A stretch of 49,194 nucleotides of DNA from Alphaproteobacteria bacterium (GTDB lineage: Bacteria > Pseudomonadota > Alphaproteobacteria > Sphingomonadales > Kordiimonadaceae), in assembly GCA_021774735.1 (NCBI GenBank), contig JAJFIS010000002.1, forward strand, positions 1 to 49,194. Direction: 5' to 3'. Every line of letters begins with the position of its first letter. The first letter of the stretch is position 1. The notes beneath the pieces were generated by a model. It was not told the DNA's origin, did not search any database, and worked only from the letters and a program-made list of their open reading frames with translations. The translations under genes and the position numbers were made by a program. Below, piece by piece: positions 13,908 to 32,210 of the stretch.

Positions 13908-15443
13908 TTATCCCACTGCTGACGGCGCCTGTCTCTCACGTTTAACAAATAATTTGTTCGCTGCTGACACATAAGCCCTTGCCGCTGCTGTCACCGTATC
14001 TTCATGTGCGCCTTGACCATTAACCAGACGGCCATCTTCTTCCAGTCGCACCGTGCATTCCGCCTGCGCGTCGGTGCCCTTTGTAACCGCATGCACCTGA
14101 AATAAAACCAAATGTGGTGACAGATCGGTTAGCTCTTTGATGGCGTTAAAAACAGCATCAATCGGCCCAGCACCATAAGCCACCGTATAGACATTCTCGT
14201 CGTCAATTTGCAGAGCCAGATCAGATATCGCCCGCCCTTTGGTCGAGCTATGCGTGCTAACACTCACCACTTGAATACGGTTTAAAGCGGTCGCCACCTC
14301 ATCATCTACAAGGGCGATGATATCTTCATCATAAATATTTTTCTTGCGGTCGCCCAGCGCCTTGAAACGCTTAAAACATTCCTGGAAGGCATTGTCCCCA
14401 AGCTCATAGCCAAGGTCTTTTAGTTTATCGGCAAAGGCATGGCGGCCACTATGCTTGCCCATCACCAGCAGTGATTTTTTCAGGCCAACGGATTCAGGCG
14501 TCATAATTTCATAGGTTTCAGCCGCTTTTAAAACGCCGTCTTGGTGGATGCCACTTTCATGGGCAAAAGCGTTTGCGCCGACAATAGCTTTGTTATTTTG
14601 CACCGTGAAACCAGTAACGGTGGAAACCAACCGTGATGCCTGCGTTATCTCCTCAGCATTAATTGCGGTCTCATAGGGCAGAATATCACCCCGGGTACGC
14701 AGCGCCATGACCACTTCTTCCATCGCGGCATTGCCCGCCCGCTCACCGATGCCGTTTATCGTACATTCAATTTGGCGTGCCCCGCCGATGACCCCCGCGA
14801 CCGAATTGGCGACCGCTAAGCCTAAATCATTATGACAGTGGGTCGAAAATATCGCTTTATCGGCATTTGGCACCCGCTCAATGACATTGCGGAACATAGC
14901 GCCATATTCATCGGGCGTGGCATAGCCTACGGTATCGGGCAGATTAATCGTCGTCGCCCCGGCATTAATCGCGATCTCGACCGCCCGGCACATAAAATCC
15001 AATTCACTGCGGGTGGCGTCTTCGGCGCTCCATTCCACATCTTCCACCAGCGACCGAGCTTTTGAAACTGAACTATGGATTGCTTCCAGCACATTGGAAG
15101 GCTCCATTTGCAATTTCACCTTCATATGCAAAGGGCTGGTGGCAATGAAAGTATGAATGCGGGGCTTTAAGGCAGGCTTTAAGGCTTCTGCCGCGCGCTC
15201 AATATCGCCCGGAGCAGCGCGGGCGAGCGAACATATTATGGCTGATTTTGATTGTTCGGCGATTTTGTTTATGGCTTCAAAGTCACCGTTGGAGGCAATG
15301 GCGAACCCTGCTTCAATAACGTCAACATTCAGCGCTTCTAATGTGCTGGCAATGCGTAATTTCTCTTCCAAAGTCATCGAGGCACCGGGGGATTGCTCAC
15401 CGTCTCTCAGCGTCGTGTCAAATATACGAACATGGTCTGACAT
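13908..15443 (-). CDS. leuA: 2-isopropylmalate synthase
   Basis: A 511-residue enzyme that condenses 2-ketoisovalerate with acetyl-CoA in the first committed step of leucine synthesis. The TIM-barrel domain starts [13 protein letters not shown] (8-20). The metal-binding HxH is at H202/H204 in HCHNDLG, and GIGERAGNA is present. The C-terminal part (about 390-500) is the leucine-binding regulatory domain, which gives feedback inhibition. The ATG at 15443 has AAGGAG at a good distance; an in-frame GTG 9 nt upstream touches that site and is rejected. The gene has a 370-nt leader with a leucine-rich peptide, so attenuation-like control is likely. Confidence 0.96.
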
Positions 15444-15511
15444 TTCAGACACTCCTTATCATAATAGATTTAAAATATACTTGGATTTACAAATAATTAC
15501 TATCTGAAATT

Positions 15512-15560
15512 GCCCTTAAGCGAGATGGTGTTACTTATCTTTACCCCGCCGCTTAAGGGC
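15512..15560 (-). promoter_or_regulatory. Leader stem-loop upstream of leuA (possible attenuator)
   Basis: Two arms, GCCCTTAAGCG and CGCTTAAGGGC (15550-15560 and 15512-15522), are perfect 11-bp complements separated by 27 nt. The 5' arm in the transcript contains the stop codon of the leucine-rich leader peptide. Upstream, AGGGC inside the leader frame can pair with GCCCT of the same arm, giving mutually exclusive folds. No U-run follows the stem, so it is not an ordinary intrinsic terminator. The leader segment CTTATCA is also complementary to TGATAAG at the leuA ribosome-binding site, so translational control is an alternative. Confidence 0.55.
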
Positions 15561-15648
15561 TGATAAGTCGCCCTAATAATGGTGTTGATAGCCTCGCAAG
15601 GCCCGCTGAATACAAATGTGCCGATAAATTTACAGGTAAAAGCACCAT
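15553..15648 (-). CDS. Putative leucine leader peptide of leuA
   Basis: A 31-codon frame in the leuA leader starts at ATG 15648 with a purine-rich GAAGGGGG just before it. It encodes nine leucines (codons 3, 4, 8, 12, 17, 20, 24, 25 and 28), including two Leu-Leu pairs. Leu content near 30% in such a short frame, just upstream of a leucine biosynthetic gene, is the hallmark of an attenuation leader. Its TAA stop (15553-15555) falls inside the 5' arm of a perfect 11-bp hairpin in the transcript. No signal peptide or domain is present. The composition and overlap are visible directly; the regulatory role is inference. Confidence 0.68.
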   Translation of the reverse strand: MVLLPVNLSAHLYSAGLARLSTPLLGRLISP

Positions 15649-15820
15649 GCCCCCTTCATCGGGCAGGGTCGCATAAGCTATAATATGCTCGTTCCTTAAC
15701 ATGGGCCTGATCCATTATTTTTAGCAGCAATTAAACCAATTGCACTTTCTTCATAGCATGATGGTTTGCATATGGAAAATATTTTAATTTTTTACAATTG
15801 AGGTATAATCGTCAGCCTTC

Positions 15821-17325: not shown

Positions 17326-17386
17326 TACATTGTAAGAATATTTGAGCAAATAACTTGAAGAAATATGATCTTTAGCCTACAATGTA
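17326..17386 (+). promoter_or_regulatory. Paired palindromes, likely ParD operator region
   Basis: Two near-identical odd-centred palindromes, TTACATTGTAA (17325-17335) and TACAATGTA (17378-17386), lie about 52 bp apart, close to five helical turns, upstream of the parD start. A third imperfect palindrome (TACCA...TGGTA) follows at about 17385-17400, next to the probable -10 region. Ribbon-helix-helix antitoxins normally bind such sites and autorepress, so these are good operator candidates. This is inference from position and symmetry. Confidence 0.45.
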
Positions 17387-17418
17387 CCATATATTGGTAT
17401 AACATAAGGAGTGATAAT

Positions 17419-17658
17419 TTGGGTAGAAATACAAGTGTCACGCTAGGTGATCACCTCGAAGAATATGCCGGTGAACAGGTAAAAGTAGGCCGTTACGGCT
17501 CTATTAGTGAAGTTGTCAGGGCGGGTGTGCGCCTTTTAGAAATACAAGAGCATAAATTAAACGTCTTGCGTAATGCCTTGGTTGAAGGTGAAGAGAGCGG
17601 AAAACCTGAACCCTTTAGCATGCAAGATTTTCTTGATGAGCAAGATTTTTTAAAGTAG
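17419..17658 (+). CDS. parD: Type II antitoxin, ParD family
   Basis: A 79-residue antitoxin. The N-terminal ribbon-helix-helix (NTSVTLGDHLEEYAGEQVKVGRYGSISEVVRAGVRLLE, about 3-41) matches ParD. The acidic C-terminal tail (EPFSMQDFLDEQDFLK) is the usual toxin-wrapping part. The start is TTG at 17419, because AAGGAG (17406-17411) sits 7 nt before it and the family begins here. The stop codon is directly followed by the parE ATG. It lies on a small island inside the branched-chain amino acid cluster. Confidence 0.88.
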   Translation: MGRNTSVTLGDHLEEYAGEQVKVGRYGSISEVVRAGVRLLEIQEHKLNVLRNALVEGEESGKPEPFSMQDFLDEQDFLK

Positions 17659-17949
17659 ATGCACAAATATAGCCTAAGGCCAAAAGCCCGTAATGACTTG
17701 CGCAAAATTTTAAAATATACGGCAAATAAATACGGGAAAATGCAAGCTAAAAAATACGCTTTTGATTTGGATGTTGGCATACTCCAAGTGTGTGAGTATC
17801 CCAAATCGGGTCTTAATGTATCATATATTAAAGCAGATTATTGGCGCATTAACATTGAAGCGCATGCCGTATATTATAAAATCACTAATAATCAAATTGA
17901 TATTATCCGCATTCTTGACCAACGGATGAACCCCGAAAACTGGTTATAA
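17659..17949 (+). CDS. parE: Type II toxin, ParE/RelE superfamily
   Basis: A 96-residue basic toxin of the RelE/ParE superfamily. Family features are the opening YSLRPKARNDLRKILKYTAN, the central SYIKADYWRINIEAHAVYYKI and the closing IIRILDQRMNPENWL. ParE toxins that have been studied poison DNA gyrase. The start ATG abuts the parD stop with no gap, the usual coupled arrangement with the antitoxin first. Length is normal and no defect is visible, so the module should be intact. Confidence 0.9.
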   Translation: MHKYSLRPKARNDLRKILKYTANKYGKMQAKKYAFDLDVGILQVCEYPKSGLNVSYIKADYWRINIEAHAVYYKITNNQIDIIRILDQRMNPENWL

Positions 17950-18010: not shown

Positions 18011-18172
18011 AAGCCCGCGCTCACCTATCGCAGTATTTATACGGTGAAATATGGCAATGACTTATGGGTGGTTCATGTTTTTCAGAAGAAATCAACGAAA
18101 GGCATTAGCACACCCAAAAAAGATATAGACCTTCTCAAGGCACGTTTAAAACGAATAAAGGAGATCTATTGA
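18002..18172 (+). pseudogene. 5'-truncated HigB/Gp49-like toxin remnant
   Basis: An open frame with no proper start codon encodes the C-terminal half of a phage Gp49-like (HigB) toxin: TYRSIYTVKYGNDLWVVHVF, QKKSTKG, then TPKKDIDLLKARLKRIKEIY. In intact relatives this block follows about 50-60 further residues, which are absent; a stop codon (TAG, 17999-18001) closes the frame upstream. Only a GTG at 18044 could start a short product. The stop overlaps the start of the next gene (TGATG), the normal toxin-then-antitoxin order of higBA. I read it as a decayed toxin. Confidence 0.72.
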
Positions 18173-18441
18173 TGGCTGATGATGATTTTGAAATGGTGTG
18201 TGGCAGTGGTAATATATACCGTGATTTTGGCCATCCTGATGCAGACACATTGCAAATGAAAGCCCATCTTGCGGATGAAATTATTAGCATATTAAATAGT
18301 CGCAAACTTTCCGTTCGTGCGGCGGGTAAGTTAGTTGGTGAGGATTACTCTGATATTTCCAAGATCAGAAATGCCAATTTAGGCCGCTTTACTCTTGACC
18401 GCCTGATACGAATTGAGGGCATGCCTTACATTCCTTTTTGA
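18172..18441 (+). CDS. XRE-type HigA-like antitoxin, C-terminus altered
   Basis: An 89-residue helix-turn-helix protein of the type paired with Gp49-like toxins: a start such as GSGNIYRDFGHPDADTLQMK, then the HTH core LADEIISILNSRKLSVRAAG and the recognition part DISKIRNANLGRFTLDRLIRI. Relatives usually continue 10-15 residues after RLIRI, but here the frame ends with EGMPYIPF. AAAGGAG precedes the ATG at 18172. The last 16 bp overlap the 3' end of a convergent AT-rich gene, so the normal C-terminus may have been lost at an insertion junction. It may still bind DNA. Confidence 0.72.
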   Translation: MADDDFEMVCGSGNIYRDFGHPDADTLQMKAHLADEIISILNSRKLSVRAAGKLVGEDYSDISKIRNANLGRFTLDRLIRIEGMPYIPF

Positions 18442-22963: not shown

Positions 22964-23079
22964 TAACAAATTCGGCCCATAGTAGCCACCAAAATAATTG
23001 GGGGCGCTGCAGAAGCGCCTTCCCAAATCCCAAAATAATTGGGGGCGCTGCAGAAGCGCCCCCGGGGGGTGGGTTTCAT
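22963..23079 (-). CDS. Possible short leader ORF of ilvI
   Basis: A 38-codon frame from ATG 23079 spans both copies of a duplicated hairpin and ends just before the last stem of the ilvI leader. Residues 28-31 are Ile-Ile-Leu-Val, and Ile37 precedes the last Cys, which would suit a leader that senses branched-chain amino acids. There is no convincing ribosome-binding site and the rest is Pro, Gly and Ala dictated by the GC-rich repeats, so this is only a candidate. Confidence 0.3.
   Translation of the reverse strand: MKPTPRGRFCSAPNYFGIWEGASAAPPIILVATMGRIC
22989..23019 (-). repeat. Direct repeat copy A with hairpin, ilvI leader
   Basis: A 31-bp sequence identical to the copy at 23030-23060. 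On the minus strand it reads as a GC-rich stem (GGCGCT-TCTGC-AGCGCC) followed by the T-rich AATTATTTT, resembling an intrinsic terminator. Here the stem is 6 bp, because the sequence flanking the 5' arm differs from copy B. Confidence 0.85.
23030..23060 (-). repeat. Direct repeat copy B with terminator-like hairpin, ilvI leader
   Basis: Exact 31-bp copy of 22989-23019, offset by 41 bp. With its flank the stem extends to 9 bp (GGGGGCGCT / AGCGCCCCC), followed on the minus strand by AATTATTTT. It lies between miaA and ilvI, both read leftwards, so it could end the miaA transcript, attenuate ilvI, or both. Confidence 0.85.
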
Positions 23080-31600: not shown

Positions 31601-31817
31601 TGAAGCCCCTAGCCTGAATTATTAGTGTAACCACACCATAAAACTAGCGCTCCTTGATCGCTTTGCCTAGTGGAAAGCTGATAAAAATCATCTGAAAAGA
31701 CTTTAAAATGCCATCATCATATCCTATGTAAGGTCTTGTCAGTTCGCTGACTATGGCAATAAACGGCGCAGTAAGTACGCATTGCGGACCCGGGGGCGGT
31801 ACCCGGCGCCTCCACCA

Positions 31818-31851
31818 TAAAGGCTCTAAAATACTTTAGAACCTTTATGAT
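31818..31851 (+). other. tmRNA intervening sequence (processed out)
   Basis: The segment between the mature 3' CCA and the mature 5' G of the permuted tmRNA. It forms a long hairpin with the flanks (ATAAAGGcTCTAAA / TTTAGAaCCTTTAT, one mismatch, loop about 4 nt), stacking on the acceptor stem. In alphaproteobacteria such a loop is removed by tRNA-type nucleases to give two RNA pieces. Confidence 0.85.
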
Positions 31852-31937
31852 GGGGGCGAAATAGGATCGACGTGTGAGGAAAGTTGTTAGCTTTTTGCTC
31901 AGGATGGCACCGCTGTGATGGGCCAATTTTGATAAAT

Positions 31938-31976
31938 GCAAATGACAACAATGTCGAGTTTGCTGTTGCTGCGTAA
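31938..31976 (+). other. ssrA proteolysis tag reading frame
   Basis: Resume codon GCA at 31938, then codons for NDNNVEFAVAA and the stop TAA (31974-31976). The Ala-Ala end is the ClpX recognition signal, and the Asn-rich start fits the SspB-binding part of alphaproteobacterial tags. The adaptor SspB is encoded 2.3 kb downstream. Confidence 0.95.
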
Positions 31977-32210
31977 GCAGTTTTAGTAAACGCATCTATC
32001 TAATCCCTGGTCGTTGACGCGGTCAGGTGGGGCTTGGTCCACCTAGCAACAGAACGGACCACTTTATTTCAGTCTAAATTTACGCATATTCCTAACCATT
32101 TCTTCATAAATAAACTGTTAGATAGCAACATGGTTCAATGAAAGTGCCCTATTATGATTAGGGTTGACTGCTCGCATAATGCAGCACCAGACAATTTTTA
32201 GGGTAATTCT

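Follow-up and report, generated by a model that had tools for sequence, protein, structure and literature searches.

The stretch of DNA analysed here (the window) comprises 49,194 nucleotides (nt), i.e. positions 1 to 49,194 of contig JAJFIS010000002.1 from an alphaproteobacterium of the family Kordiimonadaceae. On the minus strand it carries leuA with ilvC and ilvB nearby on the same strand, and ~70 nt 5' of leuA ends the element that is the subject of this study, a candidate leucine attenuator. It consists of a Leu-rich leader frame, which terminates within the 5' arm of a stem (Table 1). This stem is perfect, comprises 11 base pairs (GCCCTTAAGCG paired with CGCTTAAGGGC) and is not followed by a U-run. 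In the Shine-Dalgarno (SD) region of leuA, TGATAAG overlaps the sequence AAGGAG (15457..15452), which is located 8 nt 5' of the leuA ATG (15443..15441), a start codon assigned from the SD spacing and from relatives. The re-analysis thereby confirmed what had originally been read from the letters of the window, namely a frame of 31 codons, nine of them for Leu, which is preceded by a purine-rich site and whose stop falls within one arm, on the 5' side, of a perfect 11-bp stem.

Table 1. Features of the leuA leader region in the window; (-) denotes the minus strand.
Feature	Position	Remarks
Leader peptide frame	15553..15648 (-)	reads MVLLPVNLSAHLYSAGLARLSTPLLGRLISP followed by the stop; 31 codons, 9 Leu; ends GRLISP-stop
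Invariant Leu codon CTT, position -4 before the stop	15565..15567 (-)	fixed distance to stem class-wide; 58/58 in survey
Leader strand CTTATCA (anti-SD)	15561..15567 (-)	directly 5' of stem; complement of leuA SD region; class-wide co-evolution
Main stem, 5' arm GCCCTTAAGCG	15550..15560 (-)	contains leader stop TAA (15555..15553); covariation
Main stem, 3' arm CGCTTAAGGGC	15512..15522 (-)	covariation
leuA SD region TGATAAGGAG	15452..15461 (-)	TGATAAG (15461..15455) complements CTTATCA
leuA, 2-isopropylmalate synthase, bacterial type	13908..15443 (-)	NCBIfam equivalog match, E 2.4e-249

The true start of the leader is uncertain, because the frame stays open up to an ATG at 15702 (49 codons) and the leader frames of relatives measure ~45-60 codons. 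A purine-rich AAGGGG is positioned 2 nt 5' of the nearer ATG. A terminator-like hairpin, TGCCC-GATGAAGG-GGGCA with TGGTGCTTTT on its 3' side, is located at 15648..15665 (minus strand) and coincides in part with the site at which ribosomes would bind to the 31-codon leader. The pattern of the leader motif has one exact occurrence within the window, and the element is present once in the genome: a second match represents the same inverted repeat on the other strand and a third is at chance level. A similar leader at ilvB in the window was considered and rejected, as no Leu-rich peptide with such a stem is found there.

Conservation was addressed in close relatives, whose leuA loci were found by protein search and then oriented. 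Relatives of the same family possess an open leader frame with a Leu-rich stretch, mostly ending RL[ITV][GS]P-stop (HLLGP in L023), and the stop resides in a stem such as CCCTTRAGCAC...GTGCTTAAGGG. This stem covaries, 98% of the alignment cells being paired. Hence, the frame and both stem arms, on whose conservation in close relatives the original prediction had been staked, are indeed conserved. For an unbiased survey, protein searches placed leuA in 289 genomes, and the DNA upstream of 117 genes was scanned for a Pro-stop within the 5' arm of a stem. A match was obtained for 60 of these regions, compared to 1.7% in shuffled sequence, and 58 are convincing: the peptide ends L-x-x-P-stop, with the stop within the 5' arm. 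The matches of L198 and L242 were discarded as chance hits elsewhere in the region; L198 has a normal element too. As several of the remaining genes show recognisable variants, 58 of 117 represents a lower bound. Among the 58 members, codon -4 encodes Leu without exception (CTT in 53 and CTA in 5 cases), codon -6 is Leu in 51 (88%), and codon -5 is either Arg CGA (35 members) or Leu (19 members). Where Arg is found at -5 it is encoded by CGA in 35 of 36 cases, and the base 3' of the -4 codon is A in 57 of the 58. The constancy of both the CGA and this A goes beyond what the peptide or base pairing explains. In 97% of the members the leader frame runs for 35 codons or more without a stop, whereas the other frames do so in only 34-36%. 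Open frame and Leu codons suggest that the leader peptide is translated and, together with the conserved stem, lend support to the amino-acid attenuator with Leu-rich leader peptide that had been envisaged at the outset.

Covariation of the stem was also evident among 43 diverse members, in which 8 of the 11 pairs have changed on both sides; none of 500 shuffles reached the observed values. The peptides of L204, L238, L251 and L291 end in a Leu codon (CTC or CTN) in place of Pro (CCN), with a matching AGAGG for AGGGG in the 3' arm. In L197, L211, L273, L361, L365 and L368, the stop has moved from its usual place in the stem, but the Leu codon has kept its distance to the stem. Compensation for the loss of Pro and displacement of the stop at constant spacing indicate that stem and Leu spacing are kept by selection, and not proline or stop. 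These exchanges also bear on nascent-peptide arrest, i.e. a scenario in which the ribosome would pause when terminating at the L-x-x-P-stop C-terminus and leuA would be controlled by the arrested complex. TnaC is known to arrest ribosomes at Pro-stop, and the strong conservation of the C-terminal Pro and of Leu at -4 would fit such a mechanism. However, replacement of Pro by Leu with a compensating change in the 3' arm, a stop located further on in several lineages and the variability of residues -3 and -2 make this explanation very improbable.

The element is found across Alphaproteobacteria and is near-exclusively linked to leuA. Covariance model R1, built from the close relatives, matched 53 of the 385 genomes examined from the class. 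With few exceptions, the matches inspected precede leuA and have in common CTTCGACTTANNNGCCCCTGA...TCAGGGG or a closely similar sequence. A broader model, R2, matched 128 of the 385 genomes, almost always once per genome. Scanning of the consensus over 84,980 bacterial and archaeal genomes yielded at least 120 matches, for 80 of which titles were available. Among the matches listed, all belong to Alphaproteobacteria or unspecified Proteobacteria (acetic acid bacteria, Rhodospirillales, Caulobacter, Rhizobium, Tistrella and others) and those with enough downstream sequence precede leuA. Nine consensus matches were initially scored as lacking leuA: in eight of these DTTLRDG is replaced by DTTMRDG, and in L096 a shifted frame reads as leuA. 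In a sample of the phylum (349 genomes), 72 genomes of Alphaproteobacteria were matched. The sole match outside the class (G479) is a false positive, a truncated hit at an msrA-like frame. A second match in G067 is not located at leuA and was dismissed. Of 48 further loci, 47 are located before leuA, and the 48th (L319) is from a family in which the element stands before a yeast-type leuA and its peptides end LRLTRP or in a similar sequence. In L360-L370 the element precedes a leuA of the yeast type rather than the bacterial type, i.e. the same regulator serves two types of LeuA enzyme. In one family, a cupin-like gene is located between element and leuA (L373, L374).

The lack of a U-run, which had been pointed out as unusual in the window, holds true for the class: in only 4 of 217 members at least five T are present within the 8 nt following the stem. 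Terminator-like sites elsewhere do not exceed chance level (2 of 156, compared to 1 in shuffles). In the L292 lineage, eight T directly follow the main stem on its 3' side, resembling an intrinsic terminator. Regarding alternative helices, a second, mutually exclusive stem had been proposed, in which the 5' arm of the main stem would instead be paired with a segment of the leader. In the window this pairing is possible (CG-A-CTTA with TAAGCG), but it is not conserved as an alternative stem. The pairing showed no compensatory change and is lost in many relatives, although the leader segment itself is constant, and the second stem was therefore abandoned. Compensatory change was likewise absent from candidate antiterminator helices sharing an arm. 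A small hairpin, GGCCGA/UCGGCC, over the last codons was rejected as well: it is frequent in close relatives, shows no compensatory change and is lost elsewhere. Classical transcription attenuation of the E. coli leuL or trpL type, which relies on an antiterminator and an intrinsic terminator, would be in line with a leader peptide containing the cognate codons and with the T-run of the L292 lineage; given the scarcity of terminators and the lack of covariation in alternative leader pairings, it is largely refuted and we attach hardly any credence to it. Absence of the U-run eliminates intrinsic termination but not Rho. In the main rival explanation, the stalled ribosome, or the stem when left folded, would alter access of Rho to the spacer between leader and leuA, and leucine would thereby control termination instead of translation initiation. 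That this spacer is untranslated speaks in favour of such a mechanism. On the other hand, spacers of ~55-60 nt, as present in many members, would presumably be short for Rho loading.

A further claim was that a leader segment occludes the ribosome-binding site of leuA. We addressed this by a co-evolution test in 140 sequence clusters, in which each leader strand was combined in turn with the leuA ribosome-binding region of its own species and with those of others, using GC-matched controls. Indeed, binding of leader strand and SD region is stronger in cognate pairs (-1.56 and -1.49 kcal/mol; p=3e-7 and 2e-8), and an advantage of own pairs was also detected for the stretch -20..-5 from the SD (p about 1e-4). 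No co-evolution with the leader was detectable for the control segments, i.e. -33..-18 of the spacer and the first 15 nt after the stem. Consequently, pairing of the leader with the nucleotides immediately 3' of the stem, which single examples had suggested, was rejected as it has no support over the clusters. The variable triplet beside the stem finds its complement in its own spacer at about twice the expected frequency. In an extreme case (L103), 15 continuous base pairs can form (CCTTCGACTTAGGTG with CACCTGAGTCGAAGG), and in L053 both partners have shifted in a covarying manner (CTTCTG with CAGAAG). In folding models, masking of the leader strand raised accessibility of the SD from 0.36 to 0.52, an effect that is partly trivial, and own leaders occluded the SD slightly more than foreign leaders (p=0.013). 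For the window, the lowest-energy fold stacks CTTATCA/TGATAAG onto the main stem. The statistics over the clusters thus support that the leader strand would sequester the SD of leuA, as had been claimed, while support is marginal for the window taken alone. Co-evolution of leader strand and SD is not predicted by Rho-dependent control, which we consider unlikely.

From the computed features, i.e. open frame, Leu codons, covarying stem, linkage to leuA, absence of terminators and leader/SD co-evolution, we infer ribosome stalling, the direction of control and an action on translation rather than through Rho. We propose that the element is a translational leucine attenuator, which exposes the leuA start site only at low leucine, and assign a probability of roughly two in three to this proposal. 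According to this model, the leader peptide would be translated, and when leucine is plentiful the ribosome would pass the Leu codons, terminate and leave, allowing the main stem to fold. With the stem folded, the Leu-codon strand on its 5' side would pair with the leuA SD on its other side, precluding initiation at leuA. When charged tRNA-Leu is scarce, the ribosome would stall on the Leu codons, chiefly on the invariant CTT at -4 with its fixed distance to the stem. The stalled ribosome would cover the anti-SD strand together with the outer part of the stem and thereby free the SD of leuA.

Several observations weigh against translational attenuation. An SD-like site before an in-frame leader start is present in only 29 of the 58 surveyed members, start codons and SD sites being assigned automatically. 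The pairing in the window by itself is marginal: it surpasses 97.5% of the pairings with other SD regions, whereas for other leaders the figure is only 84%, and comparison with shuffles gives p about 0.06. The mean effect in the co-evolution test is modest, and lineages differ in the Leu-rich segment they use. Finally, CGACTTA is more constant than its varying partner on the SD side would require, indicating that another constraint acts on this sequence; the near-invariance of CTTA beyond the need for pairing is unexplained. A regulatory protein could bind the stem and the CUUA segment, as has been proposed for the LEU element of actinobacteria, with translation of the leader being secondary. 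In favour of this possibility, CTTA beside the stem is nearly invariant in its nucleotides, while the codon that begins with the A stands for different residues (I, T, S, R, M). However, the codons still encode Leu where bases change (CTT, CTA, CTG), the frame is kept open and Leu is also enriched further upstream, which renders such control by a protein most improbable. Slightly less far-fetched, albeit still doubtful, is the idea that the near-invariant CUUA is additionally read directly, for instance by uncharged tRNA-Leu on a ribosome that has stalled or by a protein, in which case the element would represent a new codon-hairpin leucine sensor with fixed spacing.

Some further features of the window were recorded in passing. 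Judged from their translations only, the small gene pairs at 17365..17949 and 18044..18441 (plus strand), between leuA and ilvC, resemble ParDE-type and HigBA-type toxin-antitoxin modules. Upstream of ilvB, at 22988..23060 (minus strand), GGCGCTTCTGCAGCGCCCCCAATTATTTTGG, which forms a strong hairpin and continues into AATTATTTT, occurs twice in near-identical form; the copies may be terminators or a repeat of an ilvB leader. A permuted alphaproteobacterial gene for transfer-messenger RNA is located at 31698..32063 (plus strand).

Among known systems, the enteric leuL/leuA transcription attenuator has a Leu-rich leader peptide with rare Leu codons encoded directly before the leucine operon. The alphaproteobacterial element shares this arrangement, but lacks an intrinsic terminator and a conserved antiterminator, and its output is most likely translation initiation. 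In translational attenuators such as that of ermC, a sequestered SD becomes accessible once a ribosome stalls during translation of the leader peptide. Release of the SD by a stalled ribosome is also what we propose here; however, ermC senses a drug through arrest by the nascent chain, and not the charging of tRNA. Attenuation of amino-acid operons through leader peptides has been reported within the same class for Caulobacter ilvBN (discussed in PMC4117421) and Sinorhizobium trpL (PMC10117765). The leader described for Caulobacter ilvBN has a Rho-independent terminator and involves other amino acids (PMC4117421), and the leuA element is a different RNA. Nearest in logic is the LEU element upstream of leuA in actinobacteria, in which Leu codons pair with the SD box of leuA (Seliverstov et al. 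2005, PMC1262725). Pairing of a run of Leu codons with the leuA SD would be the working principle in both cases. The LEU element is described as a pseudoknot, and mutation data cited in that work oppose attenuation at the Leu codons (PMC1262725). In contrast, the element described here possesses a simple covarying stem between the two strands as well as a Leu codon at fixed distance, and occurs in Alphaproteobacteria. The two elements are likely the result of convergence. Rfam covariance models gave no match to the leader at gathering scores, either in the window or in 18 related loci, and none in the leader up to E=1. We found no description of the element in Alphaproteobacteria in the open literature searched; two papers on attenuation (Vitreschak et al. 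2004; Lopatovskaya et al. 2010) may mention such an element, and priority is not claimed.

Should the proposal prove true, Alphaproteobacteria would possess a class-wide leucine switch that apparently operates on translation and has no entry in Rfam, with members including acetic acid bacteria, Rhodospirillales, one Caulobacter and one Rhizobium record. The problem addressed by the actinobacterial LEU element would then have been solved by a different fold. The element would also raise a general question that is amenable to testing, namely how stalling of a ribosome on a single codon, set at a constant distance from a hairpin, controls a distant start site.
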